Part shown: one piece after another, positions 15,558-58,252 of the stretch
How the letters are laid out: every line of letters starts with the position of its first letter
Position numbering within the stretch: position 1 is the stretch's first letter
NCBI GenBank assembly: GCA_025786725.1
Contig: JAHLTZ010000030.1
Coordinates: 248,001 to 312,000 of the forward strand
Direction: 5' to 3'
Length of the DNA stretch: 64,000 nt
Source of the DNA: Syncephalis fuscata
Taxonomy: Eukaryota > Zoopagomycota > Zoopagomycetes > Zoopagales > Piptocephalidaceae
Notes under the pieces: model-generated
The model's database searches: none
What the model was told of the DNA's origin: nothing
The model's input: the letters and a program-made list of their open reading frames with translations, nothing else
Made by a program: the position numbers and the translations under genes

Positions 15558-17058
15558 TTATTCATCACGTTGTGATTTTGTGCGCTTTTCATCTCCACTT
15601 GTCGTGTCAATTGTCTCTTCATCGGCCTTTCGTTTAGCGGCACTTTCATCGCTTGTCGTCTGTTTCTTCGTAGATCTTACTAACATAGTAATATCATTGA
15701 CTAATTTACTAGTGGTAGGGGCAGTGGTATCCTTCAATACAGCATCAGTAAGTGGATCAGTATTAATGACCGGTTTCTGAGCCAATTCTTCCATCTAATA
15801 ATAACAATAACATTATAATATAATAAACGTTTAAAATTACTTTGTAGATTAATTACCTTGGTGTCTACTTCTACTAATAAATTCAATATATCAGCCATTT
15901 CTGCCTCTTGAGCATTATCGCTTTGAGAAGACAAGGCTGACATTGGCTGCTTTCCTTTATCGGTACTCTTGCTTTCATTAGTATCTTCATCTTGACGAAG
16001 ATGCTTTAGACGTTGCTGTAGTACATGGGCTACACAGCGCAATTGTTCAATGGCATCCTCCTTCCGGTTGGTATACTCACATCCCAATGCATATTTATAA
16101 TGAGTGTAATAGAGTTAAGATAGATGACTATAATAAATGGTATAATATTGAATCTATAAAGGATATGCCTCGGCTAAACGGCGATCATCTGGCTTGTAAA
16201 GTGCTTGTTTGATTTGAAGTGCATCTTCGTAATCTTTATAGGCTTGATCAAAGTTTTCTATTGATAATAACTATTAATAATATACACTCTATCTAGTAAT
16301 ACGCTATTTACCTGATTCTAATGACACATCACCTAGTAGCATATATACATCGCCTAGCTTCTCTTTACTCTCTTCATTGTCTTCTCTTGCATAAATGACT
16401 CGTGCTAGATCAAGAATCTCCCAGGCCATACCAAAGTCATCGCTTGGTTCTTCATCTTGCTCCTCTTCGCCTTCCTCTTTATTATCCTTTTGTTCTTCTT
16501 GGTTATCGTCACCTTCTTTAGCGTCATTATTATCTTCTGATTCCTTTTCATCTTTCTCCTCTCCTCCTCCTCCTCCTCATCATCATCATCATCAAGTTCA
16601 GCATCTCCCATGAATTGTAGTAGTTTGGCTAGTACGGGTGCAGTGGCTAAATTTATATACATAAATCAATATTTGTCAATGTTTATTAAACTCATAATAT
16701 TATAATTTACCTGCATCATCGGCGTTATCTTCGGCGGTAGAGGCCATGGCGGTAGCGTCTTGACCAAGTACGCCGTTCTGTTCTACTGCATTTTGCAATA
16801 AAGCACGCCCATAAAGCACAAGAACATCGGCGTATTCTGGCGCGTCCTCGCCCAATTGCTCTCCTCTAGCTGTTTATTAGCGCACTATACCATACTAGAC
16901 TTGACTAAACCTTACAAAAGCTGAGATGCTTCACCGTATGCCTGTACGGCTTCTTCATATTGTCGTAGTGCCAATGCGCGGTTACCTCGCTTTAACGCCT
17001 GGTCCACTACTGGCACATCACTAGTAGCGGCAATGGAAAGTGCATCAGACGTCGACAT
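15558..17058 (-). CDS. NASP/Hif1/Sim3-type histone chaperone with SHNi-TPR repeats
   Basis: NASP-family proteins bind H3-H4 (and CENP-A) with tetratricopeptide repeats interrupted by an acidic tract. Exons: 16916-17058, 16711-16865, 16312-16646, 16167-16257, 15857-16103 and 15558-15794 (about 402 aa if one base is restored). TPR1 reads ALKRGNRALALRQYEEAVQA; a following repeat includes DAPEYADVLVLYGRALL. The acidic stretch is DDDDDEEEEEE and onward; a third repeat begins MAWEILDLARVIY; the SHNi core follows with RLAEAHYKYALGCEY. The C-terminus is lysine-rich (KRKADEE), like a nuclear localisation signal. Two oddities: the intron after exon 4 is a U12-type AT-AC intron, and the frame slips by one base inside the GAG run at 16560/16561. 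Start ATG at 17058 is the first in frame. Confidence 0.85.
16104..16166 (-). other. U12-type AT-AC intron in the NASP gene
   Basis: The 63-nt intron starts ATATCCTTT, exactly the U12-class donor, and ends AC. A TATCTTAAC branch-site match (consensus TTCCTTAAC) lies 10 nt before the 3' end, the spacing typical of minor-spliceosome introns. No GT-AG choice restores the frame here: reading through gives a TAG stop two codons later. AT-AC splicing instead gives RLAEAHYKYALGCEY, the conserved NASP SHNi-TPR core. Confidence 0.9.
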
Positions 17059-45148: not shown

Positions 45149-46331
45149 TTAGTGGCACTATAGCTTGCGTGCGTGTATAACATGTGTGTGTACAACTTGT
45201 TAGCAAGTCTGTTCGTTTATTTGCTCACCCAATGATTGGTTTTTTTATGAATTATTGAATAATAAACCGAGCCCACGTGATACATTAAAGAATTTCTATC
45301 GTGCAACTTAATGTTTGATAATCATTTATTACACTCTCTTTTTACTTTTGAAGTAATATTTTATCGTTGTTTAAAAATATTACAAGTGATCTCTTTACGT
45401 TTCTAGTAATAAAAATGTCAATAAACGTGCTAGTTGCCTAGTTTTTTATCTTAAGTAAAATATCTTTAATGGGATGTAATAGACTTGTTACATTTTATTC
45501 ACAATAGAATGTACGACCAGAATGTTGTAACACGTTAAAGAATTTCTATCGTGCAACTTAATGTTTGATAATCATTTATTGCATTCTTTTTTACTTTTGA
45601 AGTAATATTTTACCGTTGTTTAAGAATATTACAAATGATTTCTTTACGTTTCTAGTAATAAAAATGTTAATAAACGTGCTAGTTGTCTAGTTTATTGTCT
45701 TTTTGGTAAGTATTTTTTGATACAATGTAACAAGTCTATTGTATTGTATTCACAATAGAATATACGACCAGAATGTTGTAACACAGCCCTTGTTTAACGC
45801 TTACCCCCCTTAAGCCAGTTTATGTTGCAATGCCCGAAGTGCGTATACGTCATAGCACATAATATATTGCCTACAGCTATAGTTACAGTTACTAATACGA
45901 TGACTAATGTTATCATGAATACTGTAATAAATAATGGTTAAAATAGTAAAATATAACATGTAATAAATAGAGCAATGCTTAAAATGAAGAAACACCAATT
46001 ATATTTATTAATAGAAGCTTATTGGTACTATATCTCTTTGGCGCGTAAATAAAAATGGCATTAAAAATATGAACAAGTACTTATTAAATTATAAAAAGCG
46101 GAAAAGGCAGGTTAATTCGTATTACTATATTTGGTAGCACAGGCATTGTGAAGTATTATTGCTAGCTATAAAATGATGCATGTCTGGGCGATCCACTACA
46201 ATTGCTTCTATATTCTTAACAACACGCTATTGTAAGGCTATCACGTCTACAAACGATCTTTCAACACTTCTTGTTTAAATTTACGATTTTATTTTGTTTT
46301 TAACAATTTTATTTGATACTTTAAAGTAACA
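45149..46331. other. Intergenic region between chitinases with tandem repeat
   Basis: Apart from the two 250-bp repeats (45282-45783, listed separately) no feature is seen. A T-rich stretch (46260-46320) precedes the second chitinase and probably forms its leader. Confidence 0.4.
45282..45783. repeat. Tandem direct repeat of about 250 bp with an inverted core
   Basis: Unit 1 (45282-45531) and unit 2 (45532-45783) share long identical strings: AAGAATTTCTATCGTGCAAC, TTAATGTTTGATAATCATTT, GTAATAAAAATGT, AATAAACGTGCTAGTTG and ACGACCAGAATGTTGTAAC. One 18-bp core is flipped: TGTAATAGACTTGTTACA (45475-45492) in unit 1 versus TGTAACAAGTCTATTGTA (45726-45743) in unit 2. The pair lies just downstream of the broken chitinase. 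Confidence 0.85.
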
Positions 46332-48074
46332 ATGTTCAAATTAAAGCTATTGGTCACTGGCCTGTTATTACTCGCAACGATGGCCGGCATCAACGCGGCC
46401 AACGTATCACTGCGTCCACGGCCTTCGGTTAAAACTGCTAAAGCAACATGTAGTCCACAATTGGTCTTTTACTGGGGTCAGAATTCGTATGGTGCAAACA
46501 ATGAAAAAGATACGGCCAACTGGGAGAAGCGACTCGCTTATTACTGCCGCACAAAACAAATCAGCAATATAGTCATCTCGTTTATGCACATATTTGGCCG
46601 AGTTCCAAGCGAATTTGACCTTAGCAGCCATTGCGATGCAAGCAAGCGCATACCGGGCACAAAGCTGCTTGATTGTCCTGAGCTGCGTGAAGACATTAAG
46701 ATTTGCCAGGGACTTGGTGTTAAGATTGAGCTTGGATTAGGCGGAGCAACAGGCAACTATGGCTTCGCAAACGATGCACAGGCCGTTAAATTTGCCGAAG
46801 AATTGTATAACATTGCATTTGCCGGTAAAGGCAAAGCACGTCCTTTTGGGCCAGGTTCACTGGATGGCGTCAATCTAGACATTGAAACGGCAAAAACAAC
46901 AAGCTATCCAGCATTTGTGCGTCGACTTCGTGAGCTGCAAGGCAAACAAGGCCTACTTGTCACAGCTGCTCCACAATGTCCTTATCCAGACGCCGCGCTT
47001 CACGATACACTTGTGAATTCCGAAGTTGATGCCGTCTACGTGCAGTTCTACAACAATTACTGCGGTATGCAGGCATATGGTACAAAAAACTTTAACTTTG
47101 ACACTTGGGCCGAATGGTCGAGCAAGGTTGCTAAAAAACGCGGCGCTAAAGTCTATTTGGGCATTCCGGGATCGCCCAAATCGGCCGGCAGTGGATATGC
47201 GTCGGCAGCACGCGTTAATGAAGTAGTAAAAAAACTGGCCAGCGCCTATCCAAGTGTATTCGGTGGTGTAATGATGTGGGATGTCAGTACGGCCTACATG
47301 AATAAGGATGGCGGCAGTAACTTTGCCAATGCTGTCCACAACTCATTAAAGGCAGTTTGTGGTAAAACACAAGCAGCGCCTGTTGAAACATCCATTGTAT
47401 CGGATCAATCAGATGTGTGTCCGGCAGTTGGTGCATCTTGCACTGAAGGTGCCTACAGCTGTGCTAATGAGAATGTCAGCATATGTATCAACGGTCATTG
47501 GACACACCAGCCTTGCGGTTCTGGCACAGTTTGCCAACATACAGCCGATTACACTAGCGTATTTTGCGATGTCCCTAACGCTTTACAAGCAAGCTGTACC
47601 AAGAATGCTACGACAAAGACCGCCAATTTAATTGATATAAGCCTTAAAGCTAATGCTGATGTCAGTGCAGCGCTTAGCCTTGTCTATCAACAAGCCAATG
47701 CAACACACTTAACCGTCAGAGTTGCTGCACGCGCTGAAAGCAGCAATACTGCCAATACCGCATTCCGCAACGAATGGACATTCCGCGCGCAAGCGCCAGT
47801 CGGCGTTCAGCTTGTGGCTACCTCACGCGGTCGTATCGTTTCGCGTGGTGAAGCAAACAACGACAATAACGTCATCAGCATCGTTTCAGAAGCGGCTAAA
47901 GAGCCAGCAAGTAGCATGCTTGTAGCGTTTGAGCTTGTATTGAAACGTAGTGAATCTGAAGCTGCCACTAATAATCGTTCTACTGTTAGTCTATCTAATG
48001 ATAAGATAGTTGCATTAGCGCCAACCAACCTAAATTCTGCTGCTTGGCTTCATGTTTTGAGTAATGCTCAATAG
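46332..48074 (+). CDS. GH18 chitinase with CBM19-type module
   Basis: An intact single-exon gene of 580 aa. Residues 1-22 are a signal peptide (LLVTGLLLLATMAGINA). The GH18 barrel runs from about 42 to 345: QLVFYWGQNSYG, ISFMHIFG, IELGLGGATGNYGF, the active-site strand LDGVNLDIE (E185), [20 protein letters not shown] and [11 protein letters not shown] cysteine-rich chitin-binding module of CBM19 type follows (CTEGAYSCANENVSICINGH, CGSGTVCQ). The C-terminal 140 residues match the same region in the third chitinase. It hydrolyses chitin at the wall or outside the cell. Asn replaces the first Asp of the usual DxDxE, as in both paralogues. Confidence 0.92.
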   Translation: MFKLKLLVTGLLLLATMAGINAANVSLRPRPSVKTAKATCSPQLVFYWGQNSYGANNEKDTANWEKRLAYYCRTKQISNIVISFMHIFGRVPSEFDLSSHCDASKRIPGTKLLDCPELREDIKICQGLGVKIELGLGGATGNYGFANDAQAVKFAEELYNIAFAGKGKARPFGPGSLDGVNLDIETAKTTSYPAFVRRLRELQGKQGLLVTAAPQCPYPDAALHDTLVNSEVDAVYVQFYNNYCGMQAYGTKNFNFDTWAEWSSKVAKKRGAKVYLGIPGSPKSAGSGYASAARVNEVVKKLASAYPSVFGGVMMWDVSTAYMNKDGGSNFANAVHNSLKAVCGKTQAAPVETSIVSDQSDVCPAVGASCTEGAYSCANENVSICINGHWTHQPCGSGTVCQHTADYTSVFCDVPNALQASCTKNATTKTANLIDISLKANADVSAALSLVYQQANATHLTVRVAARAESSNTANTAFRNEWTFRAQAPVGVQLVATSRGRIVSRGEANNDNNVISIVSEAAKEPASSMLVAFELVLKRSESEAATNNRSTVSLSNDKIVALAPTNLNSAAWLHVLSNAQ

Positions 48075-50170: not shown

Positions 50171-52171
50171 ATGAAATCTAACAAAATGATGACTGATCGC
50201 TACTCCTTTTGGCAACTTGCCGCGGCCACGGCCATTTTGATAACTGCTTTTCCTGTATCAAGTTATGCGGCTGCAGCCGGCACTCGTAGTGTCGATGCAC
50301 CAACCAGGGCAACGATGGCCAGTGCGCCAGAAACATGTAGTCATGATACCAAACTCGTCCTTTACTGGGGCCAAAATTCCTTTGGATCGGCAAATCCGGC
50401 TGATAAAACAAAATGGGAAGGCCGCCTTGCTGACTATTGCCGGTCAGGCAAATTAGGCACTGCTGTACTTTCATTTATGCACGTTTTTGGCCAGGGTCGT
50501 GATAGGACACAAGTTAACTTTGCTAATCACTGCGCACCTGAAAATACGCTGCCTGGATCACAATTGCTTGACTGTCCCGAACTACGCGAAGACATCAAGA
50601 TCTGCCAGGACCTCGGTGTTAAAGTCGAGCTTGGACTGGGTGGTGCCGCTGGTAGCTACGGTCTAAGCGACAACAAAGCAGCCGTTGCATTTGCCGACGA
50701 ACTTTGGGACACCGTATTTGGCGGTGATAGCAAGACACGTCCATTTGGTTCAACTGCACTCGATGGTGTTAATCTCGATATCGAGGGTGGCAGTCCATTT
50801 GGCTATGCTGCTTTTGTTAATCGACTTCGCGAACGCCAGAGCAGTGCCGGCTCAAAGGCTCGTCCACTTATTGTCACTGCTGCACCTCAGTGCCCATATC
50901 CCGATGCCTACCTTGATGATGTCATGAAAAATGCAGCAGTCGATGCTGTTTACGTGCAGTTCTATAACAATTACTGCGGTACACAAGCCTTCGGCACTCA
51001 AAACTTCAACTTTGATATCTGGGATGAGTGGTCGAGCAAGACTGCTAAGATTAAGGGTGCCAAGGTCTTCCTTGGTATACCAGCCTCGCCATCTGCTGCT
51101 GGTAGTGGCTACGTTCCAGCCTCGCGTTTGCGTGATATCATTTTTGATGTACGCAAATATAACTCATTCGGCGGTGTTATGATGTGGGATAGCAGTCAAG
51201 CTTTCGGCAATATGGAAGGTGGCAAGTCTTATGCTGAATTGGCCGTTGCTTCATTAGAAGCGGCTTGCAACGGTAAGACCCCAACTCCTTCGCCAGTACC
51301 AGTACCAGTGCCTTCGCCTTCGCCCTCTCCTGTACCAGCGCCTTCACCAACTCCAGTGCCGTCACCAGTGCCTTCGCCCTCTCCTGTACCGTCACCATCG
51401 CCTTCACCAACTCCAGTACCGTCACCAGTGCCTTCACCAACTCCAGTACCGTCACCATCGCCTGGTAATGGTGATGTCTGCCCTGTAGAAGGCGGTGCTT
51501 GCCAAGAGGGTAGCTACGACTGTTCAGGCACACAATACGCCCAATGTCTATTCGGTAAATGGATCTTGCGACCATGTCAGTCGGGTACTGTCTGCCGACG
51601 CACTGCCGATCGCCGCAACGTCTTCTGTGACCTACCAAACTCGACCGATTTGCCTTGCCGCCAGCCATCGACGCCTGGTTTCACCCCAGCTGAACGCCTA
51701 CAAATCTCGACGACCAATGCTGCAGCTGAACGCACACGTGCCGCTGCCTTCACCGGTAATGGCCATCCAGCTGATGTTAATGTCGTTTACCAATCAGCCA
51801 ACGCAACACACATGACCGCCCATATCGAAGCAAGCGTCAGTGCAGCCACTCGCAAGTCAGCCATCAACTCATTCAGCAATAGTTGGACACTTTCCTTTGC
51901 GGCACCCAACGGTGTTAGCCCAGTATCTGTAAGTCGCGGCACAATAAACAACGATCAAACTCATGCTACTGCTACAACTGGCGAGGAATGGCGCCGCTTC
52001 GAAGTAAAATCAGAACCATCGAAGGAGCCAGCTAAAAACATGCGCATTGTAATGGATGTTGTGCTTAAACGTGCGGCACCAACTGCCACAGCAGGTTCAT
52101 CGGACGACATTAAGGCAGCATCTGCTCCATGGCTTCAAGTATTGAAGGATGTTCAATTGCAGTCGCAGTAA
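50171..52171 (+). CDS. GH18 chitinase with Pro-Ser linker and CBM19-type module
   Basis: An intact gene of 666 aa. Signal peptide to about residue 35 ([16 protein letters not shown]). The GH18 domain spans about 60-360, with [35 protein letters not shown], active-site [11 protein letters not shown] (E205) and [12 protein letters not shown] linker of about 65 residues of PSP/PTP repeats follows (51283-51465), probably O-glycosylated and flexible. The chitin-binding module is [20 protein letters not shown] followed by CQSGTVCR, then the C-terminal domain shared with its neighbours. The broken first gene is the closer paralogue (both read NSFG and DIEGG). Single coding exon, with a likely 5'-UTR intron just before the ATG. 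Confidence 0.93.
51283..51465 (+). repeat. Coding minisatellite (Pro-Ser/Thr linker)
   Basis: Repeated CCTTCGCCNTCNCCN and CCAACTCCAGTNCCGTCACC units encode PSPSPSPVP and [11 protein letters not shown]. Unit identity at the DNA level suggests recent slippage, so the linker length probably varies between strains. Confidence 0.8.
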
Positions 52172-54342: not shown

Positions 54343-55981
54343 ATGTTTAGTCACCGATCAAGCTTCGTTCGTCGTTGGTTGCAGCTGTTTAGTCTCCTAG
54401 TGCCGGTGTTGCTCTCTACGTTCGGTGTTGTAGTGACGCCGCATGTTGCCAATGGAGATATCATTGTTCTAGTGAGTAACGCCTAATCTGCACCTTGTTC
54501 AATTACTTACGCTATGTATGCCGCACGTTGCTAATTGACCTATAGGCTACCAATGAAACGTTTGTGGTAAGTCTATAGCTTAATAATAGCTATTGAATGT
54601 AAATTAATACTGACTACTTTATTTGCTACATACATATATCTATCTATCTACCCATCCATGTATATATGCATCTACCATATTATTGACGCTGCTAGTCTCG
54701 TATAGCAGCATTTGGACCTCGCATTTACGACGATGGCACTCCACCCGAGAAAGGCGAGCCACCGCTACCGTTTCCAGGACCGGTAGGCCAACTTTTACCA
54801 GTGGAAAACATTATGCCGAATAATCAGCGAGGATGTCAGCCCATTCCTGAGTCATTAAAACAAAAGCTACCAAACCAGAAATGGATTGCTTTAGTAGAGC
54901 GTGGTGATTGTTCATTCATTGATAAAGTACGAGCCATGCAAGACTCGGGTGCAGCAGCTGTTGTTGTAGGCGATAATCGTTGGGATAGTCTTATTACTAT
55001 GTTTGCTGCTGGTAAGTTCAATTTAATAGACGAATATATTGAATAACACGTACTAATTCTACACCGATATAGAGGATACATCAGATGTCAATATTCCATC
55101 TGTATTTACTCTTCAAATCGATTACCACCAACTGCGATATCTAGCATCGCACCTAGACCAGCCATTTATTGTTAAACTGCTTAGTGATGATGTAATTTCA
55201 TGGTAATGATTACATGAGCGCTTTTGCTCATTATTCTATTATAGTTTCAATAGCTAACACGGATTGAATAGGCCATTACTTGATATTCTTATTGTTACCA
55301 TTATAACACCTACGCTAATGATGGTATTTATCTACGCTATTTGGTATGTGCGCCAACGACAAGATCAACTGGCCGATTTAGCACCACGCCAAGTTGTCAA
55401 CAATCTGCCAACGAAACTATTTTCACAAGACAAATACCAGCGAAAATGATCCAGCCGAGTGTGCCATTTGTTTGGATGATTTCGTCGATGATGACCAATT
55501 GCGTGTCATGCCTTGTCGACATGAATTCCACATAGCCTGTATTGACCCGTGGCTGACTACACGAAAGCGATTCTGTCCAATTTGCAAACAGGATATATGT
55601 CCAGCCAACGAGCGAACACCATTGCTGGCCAGTCTAGGCGGCGGCGTCTCCAATGGTCGTCGCATGTTAAATAGACACTTTTCACTTTCTGGCATTCGAT
55701 CACGACTGGCATTGCCGACAACCACTAGATCGTATTCAAGCACCGATAATGCAGGTGAACACGAACCAGCATTATTACCATTATCGAGTGCAGGGGATGA
55801 GCTAGAACAGGGACAGGAGCAAGAACAAGAACAGGATGTACCTGGAGAAGAAGAAGGGGCATTGCTTAGTGTACTAGTTGTGCACCATTCTTCAGAAGAA
55901 GGAGAAGGAGAAGCGGAAGCAGAAGTGGAAGAAGAAGCTGTAACTGAAGATAACACAGCTCGTTCGGATACAAACCATTAG
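54343..55981 (+). CDS. PA-TM-RING (RNF13/RNF167-like) ubiquitin ligase
   Basis: Membrane E3 ligases of this group sit in endosomes or vacuoles with a lumenal PA domain and a cytosolic RING-H2. Exons: 54343-54471 (signal peptide, [14 protein letters not shown]), a 21-nt mini-exon 54546-54566 (ATNETFV), 54706-55011, 55073-55202 and 55272-55981. The PA domain reads [20 protein letters not shown] followed by AAAVVVGDN. The transmembrane helix is [20 protein letters not shown]. The RING-H2 is [28 protein letters not shown] (C3H2C3). The tail is Glu-rich. The frame is off by one base at the mini-exon junction (54566/54706) and again in the TTTT run at 55420-55423; both fit single-base sequence errors, since both flanks are conserved. 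Confidence 0.8.
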
Positions 55982-56686: not shown

Positions 56687-58252
56687 ATGCATACTTTGAA
56701 ATGGAGCTGGTCATCTTGCTACCACCTATTATTCTGTTCGTTGTTTGCTCCAATTCGTAAATGGTTAAGCTATATAGCTATTTCATGGATAGTGTTGCAA
56801 TGTCTAATGAATGAGCACCAGAATAGTTTATTTAGTGGGCACGTTGGTGTTAAGGCGGCCCCTACGTCCAAAGTAGGTGATTTAGCGTATTTCTACTATC
56901 TGATAGACTAACGATAGGCTAGATACGGTTGATGTCACCAGAACAAGGTAGATACGCGCTAAATAGTGCTAATTGATACTTAATAGATTGAATACTTGTA
57001 GCTTTATTAGATGCTCAGAAACTATTATCGACTATGACCTACTCGAATGCTTCATCAACTATAGATATGATACATGAAGCGATGGGACAACAAGTATTGA
57101 CGGTTGATGTGTCTTATCCTTCATCAACGATATTGCCAAAAAATAAAGATTGTGTGGCATCGGGTCTACTACCATCGGCAGATGAGTACCACGAATCAAC
57201 AAGTGAGGATGGTCAATCAAGATGGTGTCTCCATCCATATACTATGACATCAGCCGTATTAATTCCGAAACATGTTTGGAAGGACAGTGCAAATCATCGT
57301 CATAATAATAATGACGACACAGGCCATGGCGATTCAACGTGGATTGATTTTGACGATTTTATCGATACGGCATTTGAATTCATACGGACCGCGCTTTATT
57401 ATTTTATTGTCATTTATGTTATATTTCTTAGCATTGCTCTTCCCTATATACTGTATACCCAAATGCGTCGATGTTTTCTATGGTTTATGGGCAGTAATAC
57501 AAACGAGGGGGCCACAGATCAGTCGACGAGGCCACGAGTGCAGCGGGTGCACAACGGCCGTGTTGCCACCACCACGTATTGTGGCTTACCGATCAATTCG
57601 TACGCGACGACATTATGGAGGCACGGAAAATACACGTGTTAATTTATCTGAATTAAGCAGTGACGAGGAAGATAATAGGCCACTCGGTATACGATATACG
57701 ACTCGTATCAATCATTTGTCCGTATCGGCACCGGCTTCTGCATCAACCCAGCCACTTGTAGCATCATCACCATCACCACCACTAAATGAGGGACACAGTG
57801 GACATGAAGCACACTATCGCATTACTAATGGACACCATCCATCAGAAAATTACACCGCACAAGAGGAAGAGGAAACGATAAAGGCCCTAGATATAGAACA
57901 GAATGGATTGACCAACACGGTAGAGTGTCCCATCTGTTATGATCCATTTGTAGATAGTGATATTGTCATGGAATTGGGTTGTCGACACACCTTCCATTCA
58001 GGCTGTATTGGACAGTGGCTACGTCGACGTCACCCCACGTGTCCTATGTGTCGGGCTCATATACCTACGCATGGTTTAGATTACCGCCTATTAAGAATGC
58101 CATCACGCTATTCGAATGGATTCAATGCGCTAAATTATGCAGAAGATCCAACCTACCGACTAAGTCGAGACTATGCGTCACATTTTGTAAATCATCAGAT
58201 GAATGACGATCCAACCAATGGAGAGCGACGACCTCTACTACTTGATCGTTAA
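56687..58252 (+). CDS. Membrane RING-H2 ubiquitin ligase
   Basis: Exon 1, 56687-56872, starts with a hydrophobic leader (CYHLLFCSLFAPI, YIAISWIVLQCL). Exon 2 begins at 57019 after a 146-nt intron; using the CTCAG acceptor rather than the earlier TTAG keeps the frame. A lumenal region of about 110 residues is followed by one transmembrane helix (FIVIYVIFLSIALPYILY), a Ser-rich acidic linker (LSELSSDEEDNRPLG) and RING-H2 CPICYDPF, CRHTFHSGCIGQWL, CPMCRAH. The frame changes by one base between about 57480 and 57580, between helix and linker. The order leader, lumenal domain, helix, RING parallels the upstream neighbour, but no clear PA motif is seen. Tandem arrangement suggests an old duplication. 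Confidence 0.7.

Follow-up and report, generated by a model that had tools for sequence, protein, structure and literature searches.

A very probable U12-type AT-AC intron in the NASP gene of Syncephalis fuscata and sequence support for a retained minor spliceosome

Introduction

Does the histone-chaperone gene NASP of Syncephalis fuscata, a fungus of the order Zoopagales in the phylum Zoopagomycota, contain a minor-class intron with AT-AC termini, and does this organism keep the spliceosome that would remove it? The question is raised by positions 16104-16166 of a 64,000-nucleotide stretch of S. fuscata DNA, the whole of which we refer to as the window. According to the established mechanism of minor splicing, U11 and then U6atac pair with the donor, and the branch region is recognised by base pairing with U12.

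Minor introns are already known from Basidiobolus, Rhizophagus, and Mucoromycotina. Bartschat and Samuelsson (2010; PMC2846911) give one AT-AC and 2-3 GT-AG minor introns for Rhizopus as well as 8-9 AT-AC and 8-12 GT-AG minor introns for Phycomyces, depending on which of two methods is used. Larue and Roy (2023; PMC10639083) count 205 minor introns for Rhizophagus and 249 for Basidiobolus and infer a pronounced minor-intron loss in the ancestor of Zoopagomycota. Their survey of more than 3000 genomes classified annotated introns; the authors acknowledge that some minor introns are unannotated and argue that such introns belong to genes that are themselves unannotated. The main text of this survey does not mention Syncephalis, none of the titles among the literature matches listed deals with minor introns in this genus, and a term search of PMC6717393 returned no mention of NASP, RPF2, or ZNF593. 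PMC7466969 names an S. fuscata strain, S228 v1.0. About 24-26% of human minor introns are AT-AC (PMC10639083, PMC8280824), and De Wolf et al (2021; PMC8280824) link A-type minor introns in human cells to CENATAC, whose strongest interactor is TXNL4B.

Results

Structure of the NASP gene and of its AT-AC intron

The NASP gene lies on the minus strand and is divided into six exons. Exon 1, coding from the ATG (16916-17058), and exon 2 (16711-16865) are followed by GT-AG introns at 16915-16866 and 16710-16647, respectively, and exon 3 (16312-16646) by a GT-AG intron at 16311-16258. Exon 4 (16167-16257) stops at the AT-AC donor with ...RRLAE and the first two bases of the following codon, and exon 5 (15857-16103) resumes with A|HYKYALGCEY. 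After a further GT-AG intron (15856-15795), the last exon (15558-15794) reads MEELAQ...KSQRDE and ends in a stop codon. Thus, the remaining four introns of the gene are all GT-AG and measure 50-64 nt each.

Directly read from the window, minus strand 16166-16104 is ATATCCTTT...TATCTTAACTCTATTACAC, an intron of 63 nt in phase 2. Its donor ATATCCTTT (16158-16166) matches the RTATCCTT consensus, the U12-type branch site TATCTTAAC is located at 16114-16122, and the AC acceptor at 16104-16105. From the branch motif to the intron end we count 10 nt, or 11 nt from its second A. The junction codons are GCC GAG GC|T CAT TAT, with phase 2 referring to the frame of the downstream half. Accordingly, the exact U12-type donor, the branch site 10 nt before AC, and the length of 63 nt that the original prediction had described are all seen in the sequence. 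By chance, the strict AT-AC pattern defined below is estimated to occur about 0.01 times per window (from about 2.9 expected and six reversed-pattern matches per genome), and here this rare pattern coincides exactly with the join that the NASP protein demands.

The specificity of this join was assessed by enumerating GT-AG, GC-AG, and AT-AC pairs that enclose introns of at least 20 nt and keep the frame to the end of the protein. Among the 54 pairs obtained, the exact RLAEAHYKYALGCEY is restored by AT-AC 16166-16104 only. Two further AT-AC pairs, which lack U12-type donors, keep the core but add extra residues, and the sole GT-AG pair (16179-16030) removes it. All 53 other pairs were rejected, as none gives the family sequence exactly. 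It had been claimed beforehand that removal of the intron restores the NASP core and that no GT-AG alternative does so; both statements hold.

The spliced peptide matches Pfam SHNi-TPR (PF10516) with 58 bits (E 6.5e-16, cut-off 21), and TPR_12 covers the AT-AC junction with 34.8 bits (cut-off 30.1), placing 66 residues on 66 profile positions. Aligned to NASP of ten other fungi, the junction is free of gaps against nine; the exception, Syncephalis plumigaleata, has extra residues at the junction, spanning six columns. Moreover, deposited S. fuscata proteins match the NASP pieces at 100% over 52% and at 99% over 42% of the query. The SHNi-TPR match, the deposited pieces, and the alignment bear out the identification as NASP. 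Since the pieces match S. fuscata deposits and this organism belongs to Zoopagomycota, the gene was also rightly called fungal.

One irregularity was found elsewhere in the gene. Within an acidic GAT/GAG repeat of exon 3, the frame shifts at about 16545-16580 of the window (minus strand), and the NASP gene is therefore imperfect in this assembly. The deposited protein P0005 omits TAPVLAKLLQFMGDAELD, the stretch before this frame break, and a similar form occurs in S. plumigaleata. The break may be an assembly slip, a polymorphism, or a tiny intron. Apart from NASP, Pfam searches of the window revealed on the plus strand two adjoining GH18 chitinase-like frames with CBM19-like parts (46317-48074 and 50171-52171) and two RING-finger frames close together (55382-55981 and 57263-58252).

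Deposited gene models and footprints in relatives

Three genes with AT-AC introns, NASP, Bud20, and RPF2, were compared with their deposited models. For NASP, P0005 ends with ...RLAEAYPL, which corresponds to reading through the donor to a stop inside the AT-AC intron, and also bears an upstream reading frame ahead of NASP. The second model, P0002, begins downstream with MHWDEDAIEQL... from the NASP end and continues into a mitochondrial carrier. Consequently, the gene is cut at the AT-AC intron into two fused models. In the deposited Bud20, a 67-nt GT-AG pair is used whose start lies 17 nt into the AT-AC intron, and the protein reads TKDILLKAIHDDL at a place where Basidiobolus and a metagenome relative read TKDLDQIHEDL. 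A JGI metagenome contig no longer than 2.3 kb encodes a Bud20 of 122 residues (P0243) that shares 79% identity with the S. fuscata protein across 91% of the query and perhaps comes from a relative.

The deposited RPF2 carries the AT-AC join LKNLLLDFFQGEK, which according to the enumeration is obtainable only from the AT-AC pair and two base-shifted equivalents of it. This correct join likely came from transcript evidence. Because the end of this model is wrong, running into a GT intron further downstream, RPF2 provides imperfect support for AT-AC splicing.

Deposited proteins of related fungi display what look like traces of the same introns. At the NASP junction, S. plumigaleata reads AEAYPLTSRLTRYALGCEY, with AYPLTSRLTR where others have AHYK. 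Thamnocephalis reads LLDILAWRWRGEK at the AT-AC position of RPF2 and TKDILTIHEDL in Bud20. AYPL or DIL is the expected translation of GCATATCCTT or GATATCCTT. Thamnocephalis NASP is clean at the AT-AC position, and RPF2 of S. pseudoplumigaleata has a clean join. These footprints fit shared AT-AC introns, and S. plumigaleata NASP would carry the same intron, its donor having been read through by the gene caller.

Minor-type introns across the genome

The window occupies bases 248001-312000 of contig 224 in an assembly of 28.95 Mb with 299 contigs. This assembly was searched with the strict AT-AC pattern ATATCCTTN{20,50}CTTAACN{7,14}AC, and the pattern read backwards served as control. The genome contains 31 matches against six for the reversed pattern, and the corresponding GT...AG version yields 13 against one. 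With a third-order Markov model built from the window, about 2.9 matches of each pattern are expected per genome, a figure that rests on two raw hits per pattern in 20 Mb.

The 31 AT-AC matches derive from 29 distinct donors, for 21 of which a join was chosen, including one (L018) whose downstream side comprises 14 residues. Seven donors were set aside. At four of these sites (L021/L022, L028, L029, and L031), no join leaves 15 open residues on each side; L041 likewise lacks an open join, L044 has an AG join only, and L024 has an open join but was read as a chance match within coding sequence. The remaining donor, C289:410479 (L064), has open joins including AC, and was left out of the 21 chosen joins and of the Pfam scan. 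In three contigs, AT-rich sequence of the form ATATCCTT...TACTTAACTTT... (loci L021, L028, L029, and L031) mimics the AT-AC pattern and is probably a repeat.

Together with 13 GT-AG introns, the chosen joins number 34; the introns measure 52-75 nt, of which 10-17 nt follow the second A of the branch site. Phases 0, 1, and 2 occur 4, 7, and 10 times among the AT-AC and 1, 5, and 7 times among the GT-AG joins, counts that lean toward protein sense, as phases and acceptors were picked with the protein in mind. Joined peptides were scanned against Pfam for all 21 AT-AC and for 10 of the 13 GT-AG joins (L054, L055, and L057 were left out). An above-cut-off domain spans the junction in 10 of 21 AT-AC peptides (AAA, WD40, Brix, NASP TPR_12, HECT, SMC hinge, YL1, PPR, CDC45, and Exo84) and in 6 of 10 GT-AG peptides (M18 peptidase, protein kinase, Vps35, EIF3I, nucleotidyl transferase, and Laa1), 16 in all. 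For the other 11 AT-AC and four GT-AG joins, Pfam gave no above-cut-off domain across the junction, and some of these presumably resemble MTG1, RPC1, UBL5, and CPSF4.

The original prediction had described AT-AC as the rarest subtype, which does not fit this genome with its 21 AT-AC and 13 GT-AG chosen joins. Compared with 26% for human, the AT-AC share is raised both in the full set (21/34, binomial p 1.2e-5) and among joins with a spanning domain (10/16, p 0.002). As the strict pattern may favour AT-AC and chance matches are still included, this share is a lead rather than a census.

Minor spliceosomal RNAs and proteins

Candidates for three minor snRNAs were found with Rfam models, each over the full model length. 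The U11 candidate scores 47.5 bits (cut-off 39, E 1.9e-6) and contains 5' AAAAAGG, AUCAAGA, and AUAAUUUUU, whereas the U12 candidate, which has AUGAGUAAGGA, remains with 34.6 bits below its cut-off of 53 (E 4.1e-4). For U6atac, a candidate with AAAGGAGAGA reaches 37.8 bits (cut-off 33, E 1.0e-6). Fourteen prokaryote genomes served as controls and gave three matches for U12, eight for U6atac, and one for U11 at E <= 1, none of them above the Rfam cut-off. A weaker U6atac match (L011) was rejected as a U6 gene; L012 and L013 are further weaker matches.

U4atac was not found, either with Rfam RF00618, for which 48 of 793 candidates were scored, or with two patterns derived from complementarity to this genome's U6atac, the second of which gave no match. 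One locus considered as U4atac (L058) was dismissed as coding-like by eye and without an Rfam match. Thus, the snRNA complement expected at the outset was recovered in part, with candidates for U11, U6atac, and, below cut-off, U12, and with U4atac missing from these searches. For CENATAC (PF14968), the genome yielded no candidate, and no control genome matched either. The DIM1 family matched at one place only (G000:C245:308169-308677, three exons), which we take to be TXNL4A-like; TXNL4B was not seen in this search.

The U12 candidate (L009 1501-1672) has GUAAGGAUAU at a position where human U12 has GUAAGGAAAA. Three bases ahead of CTTAAC, 15 of the 34 chosen introns carry A and 14 carry T; elsewhere, T is preferred at this position. 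Conceivably, though weakly indicated, the two features represent a matching change. Upstream of the U12 (L009) and U6atac (L010) candidates, TTAAATAGG occurs about 27-29 bases away in both cases, and the U11 candidate (L014) has only AAATAGG, about 54 bases away. TTAAATAGG is perhaps a common promoter element.

Discussion

On the sequence evidence we call the intron real: with a probability of roughly 0.95, window positions 16104-16166 constitute a true AT-AC spliceosomal intron of the minor (U12-type) class in S. fuscata NASP. The strongest competitor, itself very unlikely, accepts the AT-AC termini and assigns their removal to the major (U2) spliceosome. U2-type AT-AC introns do exist, two human ones being named by De Wolf et al (2021; PMC8280824), and the negative U4atac search (RF00618, 48 of 793 candidates scored, and two patterns) would agree with such a route. 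Donor ATATCCTTT and the CTTAAC branch 11 nt from the intron end are nevertheless both U12-type, the genome holds candidates for U11, U12, and U6atac, and the pattern recurs genome-wide above its control.

We give hardly any credence to the reading that there is no intron and that the two deposited genes are right, one ending in ...RLAEAYPL and the other starting downstream. P0005 and P0002 say so, but each is half of one conserved protein that in other fungi crosses the junction, and both models are visibly composite, the former with its upstream frame before NASP and the latter with its fusion to the mitochondrial carrier. Just as improbable is the use of an overlapping GT-AG or GC-AG intron that yields a divergent NASP. 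The deposited S. fuscata Bud20 does use such a pair over an AT-AC intron; in NASP, however, the only frame-keeping GT-AG pair, of 150 nt, deletes RLAEAHYKYALGCEYTNRKEDAIEQLRCVA, and every GC-AG pair listed deletes at least AHYKYALGCE. A minor-class AT-AC intron remains our preferred reading of the NASP junction.

For this intron, U11 and then U6atac would pair with donor ATATCCTTT, U12 would pair with the region around branch TATCTTAAC, and excision would leave an uninterrupted SHNi-TPR protein. NASP RNA is presumably spliced in this manner in the cell, and by inference the organism also has U4atac and the U11/U12 proteins. Retention of a minor spliceosome, as originally proposed, is supported by the candidate U11, U12, and U6atac and by the recurring minor-type introns. 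The survey criterion of Larue and Roy (PMC10639083) asks for three or more minor introns, two or more minor snRNAs at E <= 0.01, and a corrected minor-intron fraction. S. fuscata agrees with two of these three parts, namely the intron count, with 16 pattern-defined introns that have a Pfam domain across the junction, and the snRNAs, with E values of 1.9e-6 (U11), 4.1e-4 (U12), and 1.0e-6 (U6atac).

Like Rhizopus oryzae and Phycomyces blakesleeanus (PMC2846911), S. fuscata has minor-type introns of both the AT-AC and the GT-AG kind. Its introns also follow the minor-type consensus, as do donor and branch site in Rhizophagus irregularis, which resemble those of animals and plants (PMC10639083). 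Further, minor snRNAs in the genome, here as candidates, are a feature common to S. fuscata and fungi described as having U12-type introns. In contrast to Rhizopus, Phycomyces, Rhizophagus irregularis, and Basidiobolus meristosporus, S. fuscata belongs to Zoopagales, and its ratio of 21 AT-AC to 13 GT-AG under the strict pattern is near or above that of Phycomyces and above that of human. Enrichment in AT-AC introns is likewise described for Blastocystis, at 77% (PMC10639083). This unrelated stramenopile differs by its shorter introns, with a median of 39 bp compared to 52-75 nt in S. fuscata, and by the proportion in phase 0, 49% compared to 5 of 34 chosen joins.

What is new here is the order Zoopagales, the AT-AC-rich set, and the manner in which annotation hides AT-AC introns. 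Taken jointly, these observations could mean that minor introns of Zoopagales are mostly AT-AC, partly common to Syncephalis and Thamnocephalis, and spliced with neither TXNL4B nor CENATAC detectable. Gene callers insisting on GT-AG would have hidden them in fusions or in wrong but alignable proteins, so that some of the loss assigned to the Zoopagomycota ancestor would be an artefact of annotation. We regard this combined reading as tentative and, in its entirety, rather unlikely.

With S. fuscata, Zoopagales joins the fungal lineages for which there is evidence of a kept minor spliceosome. The survey (PMC10639083) argues for unannotated minor introns in unannotated genes; against this stand concrete AT-AC introns inside annotated genes, where they appear as fusions and short wrong stretches. 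Because AT-AC introns can be concealed within annotated genes in this way, genome-first searches could alter how much minor-intron loss is estimated for fungi. Should the AT-AC majority hold true and TXNL4B and CENATAC indeed be absent, the dependence of AT-AC splicing on those two factors could be tested in this lineage.
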